Positions 8,189 to 38,336 of a stretch of 38,401 nt of DNA are shown piece by piece (the first letter of the stretch is position 1; every line of letters begins with the position of its first letter). The stretch lies in IMG/VR virus record IMGVR_UViG_3300034072_000566, positions 1 to 38,401 of that record. One strand, written 5' to 3'. The position numbers were made by a program, and so were the translations under genes. Under the pieces are notes generated by a model. The model was not told where the DNA came from, did not search any database, and saw nothing but the letters and a program-made list of their open reading frames with translations. This stretch comes from a virus.

Positions 8189-8443
8189 TTATTTGTTCAC
8201 GTCCGGAAACGACTCCGGCGCTCCATAGCCCTGGTATCTGCTTTGAGCGACAACCCGCCGCTCCTGAAGGTCAAACACGTGCCACCAATTGTAATCCCCA
8301 GATGGATTGGCAAGCAACTTTTCGCCAACCTGCAGCGCCTCCTCCAGTGTGTCACGTGACGCCCGAAAGTCATGCCATCCGCCAGACGGGTAGTAGTCCG
8401 GGCCAGCGAATATGCAGTATCGCCGCGGGAGTTGCTGGTACAT
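8189..8443 (-). CDS. Hypothetical protein, 84 aa
   Basis: The sequence begins MYQQLPRRYCIFAGPDYYPS and contains GGWHDFRASRDTLEEAL and NWWHVFDLQERRVVAQS. This pattern (F-x-G-x-x-YYPxGGW...) is common in small proteins of unknown function encoded by phages and bacteria, where a beta-sheet core is expected. It follows the tandem-HTH gene by two bases and ends before a structured RNA element. Confidence 0.75.
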   Translation of the reverse strand: MYQQLPRRYCIFAGPDYYPSGGWHDFRASRDTLEEALQVGEKLLANPSGDYNWWHVFDLQERRVVAQSRYQGYGAPESFPDVNK

Positions 8444-15563: not shown

Positions 15564-15770
15564 TCAAGTCGTTTTGTTCTGAGCTGCGGAACGCTCCAGC
15601 AGCTCCTCACGCACAATCACAGTTTTTGGCGGGGCCTCGATCGTCACACGGGCCTTGACGCCCTGCGGGAGTTTCAATCTCACGATGACATCCCCGATCT
15701 GAATTGCCTCGCCGTCCATGCGAGTCAGCACCAGTCTATTTCGCAGGACTCCGTCTTTTCCGCGTTCCAT
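15564..15770 (-). CDS. CsrA-like translational regulator
   Basis: 68 residues. After an eleven-residue N-terminal extension, RLVLTRMDGEAIQIGD aligns with the CsrA core (LxLTRxxGExIxIGD), and IEAPPKTVIVREELLER aligns with the CsrA tail (AP..V.VHREEI), including the Arg used for RNA contact. CsrA binds GGA-containing sites, often over ribosome binding sites, and blocks or stabilises mRNA. The ATG at 15770 has GGCGGAG upstream and overlaps the winged-helix gene by 35 bases. It could regulate phage or host translation. The start is uncertain by some residues. Confidence 0.72.
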   Translation of the reverse strand: MERGKDGVLRNRLVLTRMDGEAIQIGDVIVRLKLPQGVKARVTIEAPPKTVIVREELLERSAAQNKTT

Positions 15771-16576: not shown

Positions 16577-16635
16577 TCCGCCCGCGGGAATCGAACCCGC
16601 ACTGTCACCACACAGTCGGCACCAGCCGGGGCGGT
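16577..16635 (-). ncRNA. tRNA-like cloverleaf, 59 nt
   Basis: It begins five bases after the stop of the DGQHR-motif gene. The stems, in 5'-3' order on the minus strand: acceptor CCGCCC (16634-16629) with GGGCGG (16583-16578), 6 bp; D-like arm CGGC-TGGT-GCCG (16628-16617); anticodon-like arm ACTGT-GTGGTG-ACAGT (16616-16601); T arm GCGGG-TTCGATT-CCCGC (16600-16584). All four stems are perfect, and the T loop TTCGATT is canonical. It differs from a normal tRNA: no bases at positions 8-9, a four-base D loop, a six-base anticodon loop, no variable loop, no CCA. I call it tRNA-like rather than tRNA. Confidence 0.5.
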
Positions 16636-16640
16636 TGTTG

Positions 16641-17453
16641 TTACATCACTTCACCGATGAAAGACTTTGCACGCTGTGTGACTTCCGCCTTTAAAATATC
16701 ACGATGATTCACGCGGCTGATCTTCAGGTCTTTACGCTTGACATCAAAGGCAAGGTAAATGCGAAAAAACAACTCCTCCGCAGAACTAGCGTTTTGTGCT
16801 GTGGCTCGCGATCCTGAGCCAGTAACCAGCCAGCCATTAAACGCACGCACATGCGGCCACATGTGTTCGTATTGCTGCTGAAAAAACAAGGAGTATTGCT
16901 GCAGTGATTCGTCAATTTCCTCATCAGTCCTGTCAGCATATGCGGTCAGCAAAAGAGCAGCCATTGCGCACGCACTGCCAACCACTCTCTTTCGTGCCAC
17001 GCACAGCGTCAGAATCCGTTCAATTTTGGATTCGTGAACTGAAAGAATTGCAGAGACCTGATGCGGAGCAGCGGTTTTCGATGTTGTGTGTTTCACCAAC
17101 CGCGTGACGATTTCAACGTGACTTCGCGGCTTGACCAGCACATCGAATATTGTGCGTCTCAATCCGCGGTCTACTGGCAATTGCAAAGTCTCTTCTGTGC
17201 TGCCATAGGTTGCCAGCAGCATTGTTCCAGACCAGTTTGCCGCGATCACTGCAGCCAGCCTGTGCTGCCCATCGACCAACCGCCCTGTCTCATCGACAGC
17301 AATTGGCTGATGCGTTGTTCGCCACTGCCCTGCTGACATCTCGGCAGCGTAGGATTTGACAGTTGCCTGTCGGCATTCTCTGTTGCCATCATTTTTAGCC
17401 AGCATCTGCGCCGCCAATTGTGGCGTCATGAAAATTTCTGTGACTCGCATCAT
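16641..17453 (-). CDS. DGQHR-motif (ParB/DndB-like) protein
   Basis: 270 residues from the first of two adjacent ATGs at 17453 and 17450, with GAGAGG upstream (the second is better spaced). The N-terminal domain reads PIAVDETGRLVDGQHRLAAV, with the DGQHR loop typical of ParB/DndB-type proteins that bind nucleotides or DNA, followed by a mostly helical domain to residue 270. Phage relatives act in DNA modification, partition or unknown processes. Its stop is five bases before the tRNA-like element. Leader hairpins and a TCACCAC motif precede the start. Confidence 0.72.
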   Translation of the reverse strand: MMRVTEIFMTPQLAAQMLAKNDGNRECRQATVKSYAAEMSAGQWRTTHQPIAVDETGRLVDGQHRLAAVIAANWSGTMLLATYGSTEETLQLPVDRGLRRTIFDVLVKPRSHVEIVTRLVKHTTSKTAAPHQVSAILSVHESKIERILTLCVARKRVVGSACAMAALLLTAYADRTDEEIDESLQQYSLFFQQQYEHMWPHVRAFNGWLVTGSGSRATAQNASSAEELFFRIYLAFDVKRKDLKISRVNHRDILKAEVTQRAKSFIGEVM

Positions 17454-17477
17454 AGCCTCTCGATCTGTGGTGATATG

Positions 17478-17546
17478 TTCCCGAGAACTGCTTCGGGAAT
17501 ATGGGTGGTGAAAAGTGCCCCAGAACTCCCGCTGAGGCGCCGGGAG
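17478..17546 (-). promoter_or_regulatory. Two hairpins in the leader of the DGQHR-motif gene
   Basis: Hairpin one has a 6-bp stem (CTCCCG 17526-17531 with CGGGAG 17541-17546). Hairpin two has a 7-bp stem (TTCCCGA 17478-17484 with TCGGGAA 17493-17499). They lie between the stop at 17554 and the start at 17453. On the minus strand the first is followed by TTCTGG and then TTTTCACCACC, so neither is a clear terminator. RNA stability or processing is possible. Confidence 0.45.
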
Positions 17547-17553
17547 GAGTGTG

Positions 17554-18177
17554 TCAGGTAAGGTTGCCAAAGCACACATCAGCAGCTTCCTTGATCCACT
17601 CAAGCACAGCCGCCTCCTCGTCAAACCCCGCCTCGAACCTGTCGGGCCACAGGTAGCCGCTGGCGTAGTCGGCCGCCTCTTCTGGAGTGCACTCGTAATC
17701 GTCCTCCTCTGCACTAGGCATGACAATACCGTCTGAAAGGGCGGATGCAAGCGCCCAGCCGGCGAGCATTGGGTGGTCCTGCATGCGCAGTCCGGTGACC
17801 AACTCCAGATTTCGCACCACTTGCTTGCAGGTCTCCATCACCTGATCGACAGCCTCGCATTCAGCAGGCATCCGCAATCGGCGGCGAGCCTCGCGGGCGT
17901 CGTGCTCCAGTTGCCGTTGCTCCGCCGCTCGCATGGCTTGGCGGATTTCGGCGGTCGCCGTGTCTCTCTGTTGTTCATCCCACTCCCACCGGCGGGCCAA
18001 AATTTGTGCAGCAACCGCAGCCAGTTCAGTTACAGGAACCAAAGCCAGTCCGCCGTTATTGCGGTGCCCTTGCAGGGCCACTCCGACATGCGACAGGGGA
18101 TACTGTGAGTGCCCAGCGTAAGCCGCGGCCAGATGGTCAAGGATCTGCGAAACGGCTTCATTGTGTTCAGTGGACAT
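17554..18177 (-). CDS. Hypothetical protein, 207 aa, coiled-coil centre
   Basis: The ATG at 18177 has CAGGAG six bases upstream. The centre is a charged helix (EWDEQQRDTATAEIRQAM, EQRQLEHDAREARRRLRM). The C-terminal part is acidic (EEDDYECTPEEAADYASGYL, WPDRFEAGFDEEAAVLEW). Looks cytoplasmic and largely helical. No family recognised. It lies in the cluster with repeated TCACCAC leaders. Confidence 0.6.
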   Translation of the reverse strand: MSTEHNEAVSQILDHLAAAYAGHSQYPLSHVGVALQGHRNNGGLALVPVTELAAVAAQILARRWEWDEQQRDTATAEIRQAMRAAEQRQLEHDAREARRRLRMPAECEAVDQVMETCKQVVRNLELVTGLRMQDHPMLAGWALASALSDGIVMPSAEEDDYECTPEEAADYASGYLWPDRFEAGFDEEAAVLEWIKEAADVCFGNLT

Positions 18178-18205
18178 GGGAAACTCCTGCATAATTGTGG
18201 TGATG

Positions 18206-18232
18206 GAAGAAAACCGCGGACCAACCGCCGCG
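18206..18232 (-). terminator. Weak terminator-like hairpin
   Basis: A 5-bp stem (CGCGG 18215-18219 with CCGCG 18228-18232) with an eight-base loop is followed on the minus strand by GGTTTTCTTCC and then the TCACCAC motif. Short stem but good T content. It lies between the ParB-like gene (stop 18249) and the next gene (start 18177). Confidence 0.35.
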
Positions 18233-18248
18233 AGGTCGGCAAAGTGTG

Positions 18249-18545
18249 TCAGATTGCCCGGTAGATAGCCGCCAGTGCCCGGCGTTGCCGCTCCGGTCGT
18301 CCGGGGTCGGCAGCCAGTGCGATCAGGTCGGTGTTGTCGCAGGTGATGCAGTCGATATCCGCCTCGCCTGCTGCGATCATGCCAGCGATTCGGTGATAGC
18401 CGTCTACGATCTCCACAGAGCCCCCGTCGAGGACTTCGACGATCGGGGCGCGTCGGCAATCGAACTGCGACAGCGGCGGCGCTGTGACGTCTGCCACGAT
18501 GTGGCGGAGACGGTCGGCGGGAATCGTAAGGCGGGTGACTCGCAT
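18249..18545 (-). CDS. Short ParB-like protein
   Basis: 98 residues from the ATG at 18545, which follows ACCGGATCACCACA. Contains PIVEVLDGGSVEIVDGYHRI, then AGMIAAGEADIDCITCD, the ParB/sulfiredoxin-fold N-terminal motif (D-G-x-H-R-x-A) in a shortened form. There is no HTH domain. It may bind DNA or a small ligand, or be a partial ParB-like module. It is separated from the DGQHR-motif gene by one gene. Confidence 0.65.
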   Translation of the reverse strand: MRVTRLTIPADRLRHIVADVTAPPLSQFDCRRAPIVEVLDGGSVEIVDGYHRIAGMIAAGEADIDCITCDNTDLIALAADPGRPERQRRALAAIYRAI

Positions 18546-18580
18546 TGTGGTGATCCGGTCAAGTGGTGATGGGAAACGAA

Positions 18581-18991
18581 TCAGCAGCTCTCTCCGATGT
18601 TGTGGCGGTAGCCGTCGTGGTCTTCCACCCAGCCGAACGCTCCGTCTTCCAGCATCTGCTCTGTGAACATGTCGTTCAATTGCTTCACGGCGTTGTCGAA
18701 GTCGGGGGCGGTGATGGTGCCTGAATCGGCATCGGTGCAGAATTTGTACTCCTTCATCACCACGTCGCCGCAGTAGATTTTCCATGCCAGTTCGGCAATG
18801 TCGCAATTCTCATCAGCGTTGTGGTCTGCGGGCAATTGCACGCCTGAGTATGCCTCAAGTCGTTCAATCACGTCAAATTCGGTAACGTCCTCGCGGCCTG
18901 CGTAGTACAGCTCAGCAGCGGTTGTTGTCGCCTTCACGATGTCTGTGTAACTGGCGTTGTCGATGACTGCGATGACTGTGCGTGTGCTCAT
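18581..18991 (-). CDS. Hypothetical acidic protein, 136 aa
   Basis: The ATG at 18991 is preceded by AAAAGGATCACCACA. The protein begins STRTVIAVIDNASYTDIVKA and is acidic through the middle (PADHNADENCDIAELAWKI) and C-terminus (NDMFTEQMLEDGAFGWVEDH). No family recognised. It is the first gene after the promoter at 19049-19077, and its leader holds a 9-bp hairpin at the predicted 5' end. Confidence 0.65.
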   Translation of the reverse strand: MSTRTVIAVIDNASYTDIVKATTTAAELYYAGREDVTEFDVIERLEAYSGVQLPADHNADENCDIAELAWKIYCGDVVMKEYKFCTDADSGTITAPDFDNAVKQLNDMFTEQMLEDGAFGWVEDHDGYRHNIGESC

Positions 18992-19018
18992 TGTGGTGAT
19001 CCTTTTCGTGTGGTGAAT

Positions 19019-19041
19019 CCCGCAGCGTCATTCGCTGCGGG
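19019..19041 (-). promoter_or_regulatory. 5'-end hairpin in the leader of the acidic gene
   Basis: A perfect 9-bp stem (CCCGCAGCG 19019-19027 with CGCTGCGGG 19033-19041) with a five-base loop lies at the predicted transcript start of the promoter at 19049-19077. Such a hairpin may protect the mRNA 5' end. It is followed by GGATTCACCACACG, not a T tract. Confidence 0.5.
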
Positions 19042-19048
19042 TGTGTGG

Positions 19049-19077
19049 AGTATATCGGCTGGCCAAATTGTTGTCCA
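19049..19077 (-). promoter_or_regulatory. Sigma70-type promoter
   Basis: On the minus strand, TGGACA (19077-19072) and TATACT (19054-19049) are separated by exactly 17 bases. It lies in the gap just after the zinc-finger gene (stop 19081) and reads into the acidic gene. Same -35 hexamer and spacing as the promoter at 20048-20076. Confidence 0.65.
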
Positions 19078-19080
19078 GAG

Positions 19081-19302
19081 TCATTCCGCGGATTTTTCTG
19101 GAATCGTCAAAAATTCCAGCCGCCGCTCCAGCTGGTCGATCCTCTCCAGCAGCGCCTGGATGCGGCGATCAGTGGCGGATGTCACTTCGCGTTTGCGGCC
19201 GCTGTCAGCCCTTCGACGGCATCCGGCGGAGCAGTAGACGGACGGACGACCACGGCCGGATCCGGCGGGCAATTCGAGAGAGCAGGTGCGGCATGTCGGC
19301 AT
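19081..19302 (-). CDS. Small zinc-finger and coiled-coil protein
   Basis: 73 residues. An N-terminal CRTC...YCSAGC cluster (Cys4, Cys7, and a CxxxC pair near 24-28) forms a zinc-binding site, followed by RRRADSGRKREV and a helix with a heptad-like pattern (RIQALLERIDQLERRLEFL). CAGGAG lies before the ATG. Phages often encode such short DNA-binding, dimerising proteins; the target is unknown. Confidence 0.75.
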   Translation of the reverse strand: MPTCRTCSLELPAGSGRGRPSVYCSAGCRRRADSGRKREVTSATDRRIQALLERIDQLERRLEFLTIPEKSAE

Positions 19303-19331
19303 GGGATGGACTCCTGAAAGGGTGTGGGGAA

Positions 19332-19577
19332 TCAGCGGATAACGCGACGAATAGCCAAGTTGCTGAACGCGGTCTGTGTGAGACGGTCGGAATAGCCGCC
19401 GTAGCCGTCGGTGATTTTGCTGCAGCGGTCCAGCAGAACCACGTCACGGCCGCGGCTGTTGATCGTCAATGCGAGCACCACGCCAAGAACGCGAACGTCC
19501 CCGGTTTCAGTGCGGCGGGCAATCGTGTCGCCGATACGAACATGGCTGATTTGAGAGATAGGGTTGGAAACTTGCAT
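19332..19577 (-). CDS. Hypothetical protein, 81 aa
   Basis: The ATG at 19577 has AGGAG upstream. The protein MQVSNPISQISHVRIGDTIA continues with a beta-rich pattern and ARRTETGDVRVLGVVLAL, perhaps an SH3-like or OB-like small fold. The C-terminus reads TQTAFSNLAIRRVIR. No family recognised. A terminator-like hairpin precedes it. Confidence 0.6.
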   Translation of the reverse strand: MQVSNPISQISHVRIGDTIARRTETGDVRVLGVVLALTINSRGRDVVLLDRCSKITDGYGGYSDRLTQTAFSNLAIRRVIR

Positions 19578-19600
19578 GGCGGAAACTCCTGAAGGTGGTG

Positions 19601-19629
19601 AAAGAAAACCCGGAGCCGGTCTCCCCGGG
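19601..19629 (-). terminator. Terminator-like hairpin
   Basis: CCCGGGGAG (19629-19621) can pair, with a bulge, with CTCCGGG (19615-19609) on the minus strand; the stem is followed by TTTTCTTT. It lies between the Cys-rich gene (stop 19645) and the next start at 19577. It is followed by the TCACCAC motif of that leader. Confidence 0.4.
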
Positions 19630-19644
19630 GGCCTACCGGGCCTG

Positions 19645-19989
19645 TCAGCTGCAGATTGCGTCAATTCGCTTGTGAATCATTCGGAGAATCTCTTCGAATT
19701 CCCATTCCTCGTGAATGACACAGACGGCCGCAAAGTCGCGGGCCTTGAACAACTGAGATTCTGTCAGTCGTGCGATTGATTCGCGGGTTGCTTTTCGCAG
19801 CCAGTTTCGTTTGACTTCGTTCTCAGCAGCCGCCTTTTCCATTGCAAGTCGATCAGATTCGCTCACAACCGCCTCCCGAACGCGAATAACGCCAGTTCCA
19901 TGACAGGTGAAGCAGTCACCGCCGGCGATGTGTGAGAAAGCGTTGATTTTCTTTGATCCGCAGCATTTCCAGCAGGTTGCAGTTTTCAT
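19645..19989 (-). CDS. Cys-rich, DnaJ-type zinc-finger-like protein
   Basis: 114 residues from the ATG at 19989 (AAGGA upstream). CWKCCGSKKINAFSHIAGGD (4 Cys-type ligands begin here), then CFTCHGTG, forms a CxxC...CxxCxG zinc site like one DnaJ zinc repeat. The remainder is a charged helix (AAENEVKRNWLRKATRESI, AAVCVIHEEWEFEEILRM). It is the first gene after the promoter at 20048-20076 and may bind nucleic acid or protein. Confidence 0.75.
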   Translation of the reverse strand: MKTATCWKCCGSKKINAFSHIAGGDCFTCHGTGVIRVREAVVSESDRLAMEKAAAENEVKRNWLRKATRESIARLTESQLFKARDFAAVCVIHEEWEFEEILRMIHKRIDAICS

Positions 19990-20047
19990 CTCAGTGTTCC
20001 TTCCCGGTGGTGATTCGGTCGCGTCGCTCACTGCGTCGCATGGAAGT

Positions 20048-20076
20048 ATTATCGGCCATAGCCGCGAATATGTCCA
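20048..20076 (-). promoter_or_regulatory. Sigma70-type promoter
   Basis: TGGACA (20076-20071) and GATAAT (20053-20048) are separated by exactly 17 bases. It lies in the 136-base gap after the glycosyltransferase-methyltransferase gene, beside a CGGAATTCCG palindrome (20098-20107) that could be an operator. It is the likely start of the transcript for the small-gene region. Confidence 0.65.
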
Positions 20077-20125: not shown

Positions 20126-21361
20126 TCAGTCAACCGCCTTGCGCCCTGTGACGATCACATCATCCCACCTGCCGCTTTGCTCTCGCCAGTCGTGCACCGT
20201 GATCTGCCAGTCCGCAGGAAACGCAGCCTGCACTGCAGCGGTCGCAGCGTCGTTCTGCAGATCCTCAACGACGAACATTCCACCCGGCCGCAGGAGCGGG
20301 CTGAGCTGGTTGATTGCTGCGAGTTGGTGAGCGACCTGGTGCGATCCATCGTCAATTATCAGATCGAACTGTTGCCCCTGCAGTTCGGCCAGGGCGGGGC
20401 TGAAATCCGGGGCGGTGCATCGGATCACTGGGATTCCCGGGCAGGCGTTGCGGTCGATTCCGACTACTTCCACGGGCTGCGGCAGGTGTCGCCAAGCACG
20501 GATGGACGCGCCGCGAAGGACGCCAACTTCCAGCACTTTGCGGGGCTGCAGATCGGCTATCAGTTCATCATAGAACTGGCCGTAGGTGTGGATGGTTGTT
20601 TTATCGCTGCCCTCGCGCTCCAGTGCCTCGCTGAAGGTTGCTGGCTGGCTCTGTGTGGGCTTCCGGCGTTTATGTTCGGCGTAGGTTGCGGCTGACGCGC
20701 CGGATGCTGCCATTGCCCTATCAATCGCTCGCATATTAATTGGCGTGCGAGCCACGTCGATTCTGCTGAGCGGCTTTGGCCGATACCGGCTGAGTGTCGG
20801 GGTGTGCGCGTCTCCGTGACGAATCCAGATCCAGCCCACATCACGACTCACAACGATCGTGTGCCACTGCTGCAAGAATTTGTGGTGCTGCATCTGGTGT
20901 GGACTGACATCCTGCTCCGTGACGATGCTCACGAATTGGTTGCCTGCGTGCTCCCAACTGTAAGCGCGGTTGCGCCAATATGTCATGCCGACGGGCCAAA
21001 TCAGTGCGTGCTCGCCTGTCGCTGGTGCCGCCTTGTAGGTCCGCTCGCAAAAATCAAACGCCAGAACGTCATCATCATCGCACCGAGAGACCACTTTCCG
21101 CCCGGCGGGCAGTTCGTAGTTCTCGCCGTACAGCCGCCATCTATCCCGCCAGATCTCTCGCACATCACAACCGGTGCTGCGCAGCATGTCGGTTCTTGCG
21201 GCTGCGTGTGGGTCCGCCGGATGCTGTGCAAGGTGAATGGTGGGTTTTCGCGTCTGATACGTGAGCGAAGGCCTGATAGTATGCTGTGAGATTTCCAATC
21301 GTCGCTTACTGAGCCTTGCATCGGTGTACACTGCCTGAATAATCATGATATGCGGGGTCAT
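20126..21361 (-). CDS. Glycosyltransferase-like and methyltransferase fusion
   Basis: 411 residues from the ATG at 21361, which overlaps the previous stop (ATGA); an upstream extension has no support. The N-terminal part (about 1-215) resembles putative rhamnosyl/glycosyltransferases (VVSRCDDDDVLAFDF, DDD at 95-98). The C-terminal part is a class I SAM-dependent methyltransferase (KVLEVGVLRGAS about 275-286, DLIIDDGSH about 333-341, LLRPGGMFVVEDL). It could transfer a sugar and methylate it. Target (virion, host glycan or DNA sugar) unknown. Only the methyltransferase motifs are strong. Confidence 0.75.
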   Translation of the reverse strand: MTPHIMIIQAVYTDARLSKRRLEISQHTIRPSLTYQTRKPTIHLAQHPADPHAAARTDMLRSTGCDVREIWRDRWRLYGENYELPAGRKVVSRCDDDDVLAFDFCERTYKAAPATGEHALIWPVGMTYWRNRAYSWEHAGNQFVSIVTEQDVSPHQMQHHKFLQQWHTIVVSRDVGWIWIRHGDAHTPTLSRYRPKPLSRIDVARTPINMRAIDRAMAASGASAATYAEHKRRKPTQSQPATFSEALEREGSDKTTIHTYGQFYDELIADLQPRKVLEVGVLRGASIRAWRHLPQPVEVVGIDRNACPGIPVIRCTAPDFSPALAELQGQQFDLIIDDGSHQVAHQLAAINQLSPLLRPGGMFVVEDLQNDAATAAVQAAFPADWQITVHDWREQSGRWDDVIVTGRKAVD

Positions 21362-22398
21362 GCTTGCACCTTTGGCCGTCGCTTCACCACTCGCTGCCGG
21401 CCTGCCTGTAACTTTGTCACGCGCCGCCATTCCGGCCTGTAACCGCTGTCCTCAGTCTCGCCTTTTGCTGGCGTTGGCAGTAGTGCAGCCAGATAGTCTC
21501 TAATTGCCGGGCACCATGCTCCCGCGGTGTGGTTCATCACGTTTGCATCTGCTGTGCGGGCCTGTAGTTGTTCGGGCGTCAGTCGATCTGTAATGCGGGC
21601 GAAGAATGGTTTCGGATGCCACGGTTTGCCGCGGTACACGTTGCCGTAGAGCACTTCCCACAGGTAGGTATTCTGGTGCAGGTTGTATTCGGTGAACAAC
21701 TGACGGAGTTTGTTTTTCTCGACTGTGTGTGGAAGGTGGGTTGCGTAGTCGTAGTTGGTGCGGCCGTTGGCTCGCAAGGCTTGCATCGTGTTGCTCTTGC
21801 GGCGCTGCCAACTGTTCCGGCGATCTTCAACCCATCGCGTTGCTCGTGGCGTGTCGAGCTCATCCCACGTTGTCGGTTTGATCAAATACACGTCGTCCAT
21901 CATCCAAACGAATTCGCTATCAATCTGCGGGTGACTGGCCATCGTCCACATTTTCGCCAGCATGTCACGGAACCCGCGGTTGCCCTGTGGCTCCACTCTG
22001 GCCTGTTCAATGACATGCCCACGATACCACGGCGGACGGTCGCCGATGATTGTGATTTTAGCCTCGCCGTTGTAGTGCGTTTCAACGGAGCGGATTGACC
22101 AGCGGAGTTCGTCGGCGCTTGCGCCGGCGTGCCAGTAGGGCCAGACAAATTGAACGGCCGAATCCCTGCGCTTGAATGAGCCGCAGCCGCCACAGGAGCG
22201 GGGTTGTGGGCGGTAGTGGCCTGCGTGTTGCTTTGCGAGTAGTAGGCGGTCGGTTTGGGCGAAAAAGTCTGGTTCACGGGCGAAGGGGCAGATGCTGCAG
22301 GTGTCAAGCGAAACAGTGCCAGTGTGAAAGAGGTCTTTGTGATTGCCGCAGGCAGCGCGACCTTCACTGACTAATCCACGATACACGCAAGGCTTCAT
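21358..22398 (-). CDS. Stealth-like glycosyltransferase with a Cys-rich N-terminus
   Basis: 346 residues. Residues 1-75 contain six Cys (4, 17, 34, 37, 69, 72), a probable zinc module. The rest resembles Stealth/capsular-phosphosugar transferase-like proteins: ELRWSIRSVETHYNGEA, ITIIGDRPPWY, and SEFVWMMDDVYLI with the DD of the GT-A type (about 166-173). It overlaps the previous gene by four bases and the next by four. It is predicted to modify a glycan. The weakest point is the family assignment, not that it is a real enzyme gene. Confidence 0.7.
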   Translation of the reverse strand: MKPCVYRGLVSEGRAACGNHKDLFHTGTVSLDTCSICPFAREPDFFAQTDRLLLAKQHAGHYRPQPRSCGGCGSFKRRDSAVQFVWPYWHAGASADELRWSIRSVETHYNGEAKITIIGDRPPWYRGHVIEQARVEPQGNRGFRDMLAKMWTMASHPQIDSEFVWMMDDVYLIKPTTWDELDTPRATRWVEDRRNSWQRRKSNTMQALRANGRTNYDYATHLPHTVEKNKLRQLFTEYNLHQNTYLWEVLYGNVYRGKPWHPKPFFARITDRLTPEQLQARTADANVMNHTAGAWCPAIRDYLAALLPTPAKGETEDSGYRPEWRRVTKLQAGRQRVVKRRPKVQA

Positions 22399-37211: not shown

Positions 37212-38336
37212 TCACCTCGCTTCCAGTGTCGCGGTTTTGCCTGTCAGCGTTTCCCAGCGTTTCACTATGACGTCGCAATACTGCGGACTGATTTCCATGC
37301 CGTAGCATTTGCGGTTGAGTTGCTCGGCGGCGATGAGGGTGGTGCCGGAGCCAAGGAATGGGTCAAACACGTCGCCATCTGTGTACGACAAACACCATGC
37401 CATTAAGCCGACAGGCTTTTGTGTTGGGTGCTCTTTGCCATAGGAGGTGACAGACATGCGAAACATTTTTGCTGGCGTGTCGATGTTGGTCCATGCCATT
37501 TCACACATTGCCAGAGTGAAGTCCTCTGGCTGTTTTTTGTCCCACACAAAAAAGCCTTTTGCTGGCGGCAAATCAAAATAATTGCCGCCCCACACTATCG
37601 CTTGTGGTACTGATTCAACAAATTGTTTCGGCTCGACTGGCTTTGCGTCCCAATCGGCTTTCGCGTGTTTTTGTCGCACTGGATTGGAAGCAATGCCGAT
37701 GCCATACGGCGGGTCGGTTAATATGCAGTTTGCTTTCACGCCCGCCATCAGCCTTGCGACATCCTCCGCCTTCGTCGAATCGCCACACAGCAGCCGATGC
37801 TCGCCTAAAATCCAAAGGTCGCCCGGCTTCGTTATCGGATCGGCAGGAGGTTCCGGAACCTCATCCTCCTTCACCTCAACCGGCGTCTCTGCCGGCATGT
37901 CATAGCCCATCAACTTCGACAACTCATCCGCATCGAAGCCCAACAGCCCGAGGTCATACTCGTCAGCGTGCAACTCCGCCAACTCCACCTCAAGCATCGC
38001 GTCGTCCCACCCGCTGTTCAGGGCGATTCGGTTGTCTGCCAGGATGTAGGCTCGCTTCTGAACCTCACTGAGATGCCCCAGCCGGATGCACGGCACGGAC
38101 TGCAGCCCCAGTTTCTGCGCCGCCATCACGCGGCCATGCCCGGCAATGATGCCGTTAGTTGAGTCGATCAACACGGGATTCGTGAACCCGAACTCCTGAA
38201 TGCTGCCAGCGATCTGAGCCACCTGGCTTTCGCTGTGCGTCCTCGCGTTGCGAGCGTAAGGAATAAGGTCGGCCGTGGCGATGGATTCGATCTGCGGGCC
38301 TGCCTGAGCCTCTGGTGATGGTGCCTTGCGTCCCAT
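37212..38336 (-). CDS. ParB-DNA methyltransferase fusion
   Basis: 374 residues. N-terminal ParB-like domain: IPYARNARTHSESQVAQIAG, IIAGHGRVMAAQKLG (GHGR loop), then LADNRIALNSGWDDAML (to about 115). C-terminal N6/N4-type DNA methyltransferase: LTDPPYGIG (DPPY 208-211), VWGGNYFDLPPAKGFF, and DVFDPFLGSGTTLIAAEQL (FDPFLGSGTT 324-333). It should methylate adenine or cytosine in a phage-specified sequence, possibly to protect phage DNA from host restriction. The ATG has GGGGGAAGGGGG upstream. Such fusions are common next to terminase genes. Confidence 0.9.
   Translation of the reverse strand: MGRKAPSPEAQAGPQIESIATADLIPYARNARTHSESQVAQIAGSIQEFGFTNPVLIDSTNGIIAGHGRVMAAQKLGLQSVPCIRLGHLSEVQKRAYILADNRIALNSGWDDAMLEVELAELHADEYDLGLLGFDADELSKLMGYDMPAETPVEVKEDEVPEPPADPITKPGDLWILGEHRLLCGDSTKAEDVARLMAGVKANCILTDPPYGIGIASNPVRQKHAKADWDAKPVEPKQFVESVPQAIVWGGNYFDLPPAKGFFVWDKKQPEDFTLAMCEMAWTNIDTPAKMFRMSVTSYGKEHPTQKPVGLMAWCLSYTDGDVFDPFLGSGTTLIAAEQLNRKCYGMEISPQYCDVIVKRWETLTGKTATLEAR

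Follow-up and report, generated by a model that had tools for sequence, protein, structure and literature searches.

A recurrent UCACCAC word before the start codons of small genes in a metagenomic phage contig

The DNA considered here, a 38.4 kb virus record of IMG/VR (IMGVR_UViG_3300034072_000566; 'the window' below means this whole stretch), is a virus contig of siphophage-like type. Portal, head/protease, terminase, tape-measure and replication-type genes are among its genes, for nearly all of which the coding strand is the minus strand. Between the tail-side and the replication-side genes sit seven neighbouring small genes, most without a family match, which are ORFan-like cargo. Six of the seven are preceded by the heptamer TCACCAC (UCACCAC in the transcript), the subject of this study. 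The original prediction had placed nine copies in the leaders of six consecutive genes, and all nine coordinates proved exact; the genes are not strictly consecutive, however, because 19302-19081, which has no copy and whose leader reads TTCCCCACACCCTTTCAGGAGTCCATCCC, lies between the genes starting at 19577 and 18991.

On the coding strand, nine of the ten TCACCAC copies are intergenic, in a contig whose intergenic share is 5.6% (binomial p=5.5e-11), and no 7-mer is commoner in its intergenic DNA. For the 649 nucleotides (nt) of leaders, a first-order Markov model gives an expectation of 0.19 copies, with a maximum of 3 in 5000 runs. The prediction was to be given up if the word turned out equally frequent in coding sequence or lacked conservation in relatives. 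Neither outcome was found: counting against the rest of the genome shows concentration in the leaders, and 8/9 copies are exact in a close relative. The 10 plus-strand hits of TCACCAC, i.e. GTGGTGA on the coding strand, comprise 9 in genes and 1 (16611-16605) in a tRNA-like element discussed below.

The word always lies on the sense strand of its gene. Six copies end 17, 17, 18, 17, 19 and 13 nt before the ATG, and the Shine-Dalgarno sequence (SD) follows them directly, outside the heptamer; in two genes a second copy stands between SD and ATG, with a gap of 1 nt in both, and one distal copy ends 51 nt before its ATG. The edges are sharp: seven identical letters, preceded by A or T, in flanks that, compared across all 36 pairs, are 27% alike. 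With 4 C, 2 A and 1 U, UCACCAC is free of G and non-palindromic. Its predicted mean unpaired probability is 0.83, as compared to 0.69 for scrambled letters in place and 0.56 for heptamers of the same composition elsewhere. A hairpin often precedes the word (19041-19019, 20040-20020, 17499-17478 and two terminator-like ones). The combination of hairpin and TTTTCTT, announced for several copies, holds for two (19601 and 18203), the other copies that follow a hairpin having no such T run. Only hairpin 19041-19019 folds clearly better than shuffles: for the 71-nt leader that contains it, z is -4.3 and 0/200 shuffles fold as well. Two leaders share one promoter type, TGGACA-17-TATACT/GATAAT, with a palindrome-like sequence (CGGAATTCCG / TTCCGGAAAAT) upstream of the repeated promoters, at about 20105 and 19110 in the window and at 15710, 16335 and 16975 in L084, a contig of the relative described next; this sequence is a possible operator.

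One close relative, contig G001 (L084/L003), covers this region and is 88% identical to the window over the right part. Identity between the two is 62/63 at motif positions and 358/435 at leader flank positions (p=1.4e-4). In G001, the genes that follow the leaders of 19989, 18991 and 18545 encode other proteins, 154, 78 and 59 amino acids (aa) long; three leaders thus front unrelated genes, and leader and word have been kept while the gene was exchanged. With gene starts in relatives called by a simple script, the motif-to-ATG gaps in G001 are 13-22 nt and 1 nt (the ATGs at L084 17086 and 17361 give gaps of 22, 1, 20 and 1), and the distal copy is again at 51. The window has two copies of the promoter unit and G001 three. 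Searches that started from the tRNA-like sequence or from the 207-aa and 270-aa genes brought up no relative besides G001, and one with the 360-aa exonuclease returned nothing. A scan of viral collections for the double-motif pattern gave no clear relative of this leader apart from G001 (L126); hits in genome collections were taken as chance-level by base-count arithmetic. The features of the region are collected in Table 1.

Table 1. Coordinates of the leader words, associated signals and genes (L084 positions refer to G001)
Feature	Position	Strand	Remarks
TCACCAC copy 1	20007..20013	-	17 nt before ATG 19989; conserved at L084 15800
TCACCAC copy 2	19595..19601	-	17 nt before ATG 19577; after hairpin + TTTTCTT; G001 counterpart leader TTTCAACACCACAA
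TCACCAC copy 3	19010..19016	-	right after 5' hairpin; 18 nt before ATG 18991; conserved at L084 17057
TCACCAC copy 4	18993..18999	-	between SD AAAAGGA and ATG 18991, gap 1 nt; conserved at L084 17078
TCACCAC copy 5	18563..18569	-	17 nt before ATG 18545; conserved at L084 17334, unrelated gene behind
TCACCAC copy 6	18547..18553	-	between GGA and ATG 18545, gap 1 nt; conserved at L084 17353, unrelated gene behind
TCACCAC copy 7	18197..18203	-	19 nt before ATG 18177; after hairpin + TTTTCTT; conserved at L084 17588
TCACCAC copy 8	17505..17511	-	distal, 51 nt before ATG 17453; after hairpin and TTTT; conserved at L084 18284
TCACCAC copy 9	17467..17473	-	13 nt before ATG 17453; after hairpin 17499-17478; conserved at L084 18322
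Weak 5' leader hairpin	20020..20040	-	before copy 1; no better than shuffles
Terminator-like hairpin + TTTTCTT	19609..19629	-	before copy 2
5' leader hairpin	19019..19041	-	CCCGCAGCG-AATGA-CGCTGCGGG; copy 3 follows almost at once; L084 identical
Terminator-like hairpin + TTTTCTT	18214..18233	-	before copy 7
Hairpin	17478..17499	-	TTCCCG-AAGCAGTTCT-CGGGAA, before copy 9; from folding and sequence
Sigma70-like promoter	20048..20076	-	TGGACA-17-GATAAT; palindrome CGGAATTCCG upstream (about 20105); aligns with two L084 copies
Sigma70-like promoter	19049..19077	-	TGGACA-17-TATACT; aligned in L084
Gene, 114 aa	19645..19989	-	CxxC/CxxCHG zinc-finger-like; in G001 a different 154-aa gene
Gene, 81 aa	19332..19577	-	no family match
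Gene, 73 aa	19081..19302	-	sole gene of the run without TCACCAC
Gene, 136 aa	18581..18991	-	no family match; in G001 a different 78-aa gene
Gene, 98 aa	18249..18545	-	weak ParB-like match; in G001 a different 59-aa gene
Gene, 207 aa	17554..18177	-	no family match above cut-off; G001 72% identical
Gene, 270 aa	16641..17453	-	phrog_5931; weak ParB-like matches
Compact tRNA-like four-way-junction RNA	16578..16634	-	hairpin loop GUGGUG (16611-16606) complementary to leader CACCAC; canonical T arm

More distant relatives were gathered through a 346-aa neighbour gene, and the leaders of the resulting 62 loci show no enrichment of TCACCAC. Other words occur in the same place. In L276, 11/14 copies of CACAACA are intergenic, in 8 leaders (p=6e-9); the same word is found in leaders of L284 and once in L279, and L291 has a looser one, AACGACAA/GGAACGA. 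The layout in these phages is hairpin, C/A-rich word, SD and ATG, and at times the word recurs between the last two; L284 has CACAACA both before and after the SD (CACAACACACAAGGGACACAACAATG). This reuse of one layout with other words, as read from sequence, is the strongest argument for a putative translation-start element whose letters are specific to the lineage. Ahead of small genes, the CACAACA contigs also repeat promoter-hairpin-(CA)n leader units in near-identical form (TTTCCGATAATGAAATTATACTTC, TCAGACACGAGTCTGA, CACAACACACACAAGGGG; L276 12300-13150, L284 12300-13450, L279 12363), and in L291 the word AACGACAA/GGAACGACAATG stands ahead of several small genes between 4059 and 12070.

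The portal of the window is common to a broad group of viral contigs. In Planctomycetota, the one phylum searched, relatives of it were found in 53/392 genomes, the best about 40% identical, which makes a planctomycete the probable host. Pairing of the leader with 16S rRNA found no support: four Planctomycetota genomes that served as proxies for the host have no GTGGTGA (GUGGUGA) in their 16S genes. Among the cargo genes, a search for defence-protein families found none. Elsewhere in the window, 37212-38336 (-) encodes an N6/N4 DNA methylase fused to a ParB N-terminal domain, and 20126-21430 (-) a 434-aa protein with a rhamnosyltransferase-like N-terminal and a methyltransferase C-terminal match.

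From position, strand, conservation, sharp boundary, predicted accessibility and layout reuse, all of which were computed, we infer that UCACCAC may work at the RNA level, as a start-associated element in the leaders of this phage lineage that acts in translation initiation; we put the probability of this at about one half. Transcripts, some of them from the repeated TGGACA-17-TATACT-type promoters, would carry in order a hairpin, an unpaired UCACCAC, the SD and the AUG, two genes adding a second UCACCAC between the last two. Most likely the word would serve the 30S subunit as a loading or standby tract: according to a review (PMC4611024), protein S1, which sits on this subunit, captures mRNA immediately ahead of the SD, and CA-rich stretches can enhance expression. 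S1 could then take hold of the transcript at the word while the hairpin insulates it. Among the three options named in the original prediction (protein site, translation element and spread cassette), the translation element fits best, because the word is found on the sense strand only, at near-fixed spacing to the AUG, abutting the SD and predicted to be unpaired, in a layout that recurs in relatives with other C/A-rich words.

Several points weigh against this explanation. One copy is distal, 51 nt before its start. Scrambled motifs are, in the folding model, nearly as unpaired as UCACCAC itself. Two copies stand behind terminator-like hairpins, where transcription might stop ahead of the motif. 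The UCACCAC version was seen in two phages that are close relatives, and its conservation thus rests on one phage pair. Published S1 sites are AU-rich (PMC4611024), and stimulation by CA repeats was shown for positions downstream of the start, not upstream. Finally, a loading tract would not call for so specific a sequence as an exact heptamer, whose constancy within the lineage therefore favours a dedicated, perhaps phage-specific, reader.

Such a reader could be a phage- or host-encoded RNA-binding protein that would control the small-gene set together. An exact, sharply bounded, single-stranded word beside hairpins and SD would suit it, and so would a word that differs per lineage, as expected of a co-evolving regulator and site. 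No candidate protein was found, however: the 114-aa protein has an Anti-TRAP match below Pfam's cut-off, and its gene is replaced in G001, where the motif stays. Within the original prediction this option keeps a certain, if rather low, plausibility. CsrA sites are built on GGA, and CsrA is unlikely as the reader because the motif has none. The cassette option, in which duplication of promoter-hairpin-leader units, with recombination, would have produced the heptamer as a by-product, draws on the promoter unit repeated in the window and in G001 and on the near-identical promoter-hairpin units among the CACAACA leaders of L276/L284. But the flanks of the nine heptamers are unrelated, their 27% identity being no more than chance, six copies are in leaders without that promoter unit, and the motif positions are better conserved than the flanks, the word staying while the genes behind it are swapped. 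This option is therefore insufficient, accounting only for the duplicated promoter-hairpin parts, and is improbable as an explanation of the word. The exchange of genes behind persistent leaders would also be expected of a DNA-level operator or recombination site, e.g. a word promoting small-gene exchange; with one orientation only, a non-palindromic sequence, a spacing fixed to the start codon and not to the promoter, and copies within a few nt of the AUG, we consider this very unlikely.

The tRNA-like element adjoining the end of the last motif-bearing gene (16634-16578) offers another explanation. It would form a perfect four-way junction without linker bases, with a D-like hairpin with a UGGU loop, a middle hairpin with the loop GUGGUG and a T arm that matches tRNA genes of Planctomycetota genomes. 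It weakly resembles a tRNA-Sec without anticodon arm (21.2 bits, cut-off 47); ARAGORN, in several modes, called no tRNA, and Rfam at cut-off gave no hit in the whole window. G001 keeps the element (L084, about 19155-19222 (+)) with one change that retains the pair; a search of other viral contigs by exact pattern did not find it. This RNA might pair with the UCACCAC leaders by way of its GUGGUG(A) loop, blocking or opening ribosome binding of the six genes. The complementarity is exact over 7 nt and reaches 8-10 nt in several leaders, predicted duplexes are at -11 to -16 kcal/mol, the complementary bases sit in a hairpin loop of the full junction, and the element is the sole intergenic GTGGTGA of the coding strand. 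Yet the complementarity was found after the fact, and with ten GTGGTGA on the coding strand, the chance of one in 61 nt is about 1.4%; folding is near that of shuffles (z -1.9), and the element is known from two closely related phages only. Searches with the T-arm pattern in relatives with CACAACA or AACGACAA leaders gave no such RNA (several of these contigs of other lineages are fragments), and the pieces of G053 that were read showed no noncoding TGTTGTG candidate, nor did the CACAACA phages, of which only some stretches around complement hits were read. As no such RNA was found in other lineages, antisense control is possible but unlikely; still a little less likely is the full scheme in which a miniature tRNA-like RNA, with an anticodon-like loop GUGGUG, would be the key to a UCACCAC lock in many leaders, making a translational regulon run by one RNA. 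A loop in L087 resembling the complement of ACACAACA was set aside, the presumed coding strand (minus) of L087 having no CACAACA. Further tRNA-like elements with T arms, uncalled by ARAGORN, lie in L087 (about 8260-8330 (-)) and L302 (about 19840-19925 (+)).

Among known systems, the start-associated sequences (SAS) of cluster K mycobacteriophages, whose consensus GGGATAGGAGCCC contains the SD (PMC3203893), are perhaps analogous to UCACCAC, which is not a member of them. Both are short asymmetric words in one orientation, just before the starts of phage genes that are non-structural and belong to different families; both are lineage-specific and rare outside their group, with a suspected role in translation. 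Some SAS have inverted repeats. Like SAS, TCACCAC is mostly outside genes (9/10 copies in leaders, with gaps of 1-19 nt except the one at 51). In contrast to them, it bears no resemblance to the consensus when two changes are allowed, has no G, leaves the SD core outside and stands upstream and sometimes downstream of it, often after RNA hairpins. With S1 or standby sites and the CA-rich enhancers of E. coli mRNAs (PMC4611024) it shares a G-poor tract beside the SD, near a hairpin and predicted to be unpaired (mean 0.83); unlike those, which are AU-rich or downstream CA repeats, it is not AU-rich and recurs as an exact heptamer across a set of phage genes.

Start-associated leader words, known so far from one mycobacteriophage cluster, are thus extended to an unrelated group of metagenomic phages that probably infect Planctomycetota. 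Because the layout persists across lineages that differ in the word, what such words do becomes testable. Leaders that stay in place while genes are exchanged behind them would also offer phages a simple way of acquiring new small genes that are expressed from the outset.

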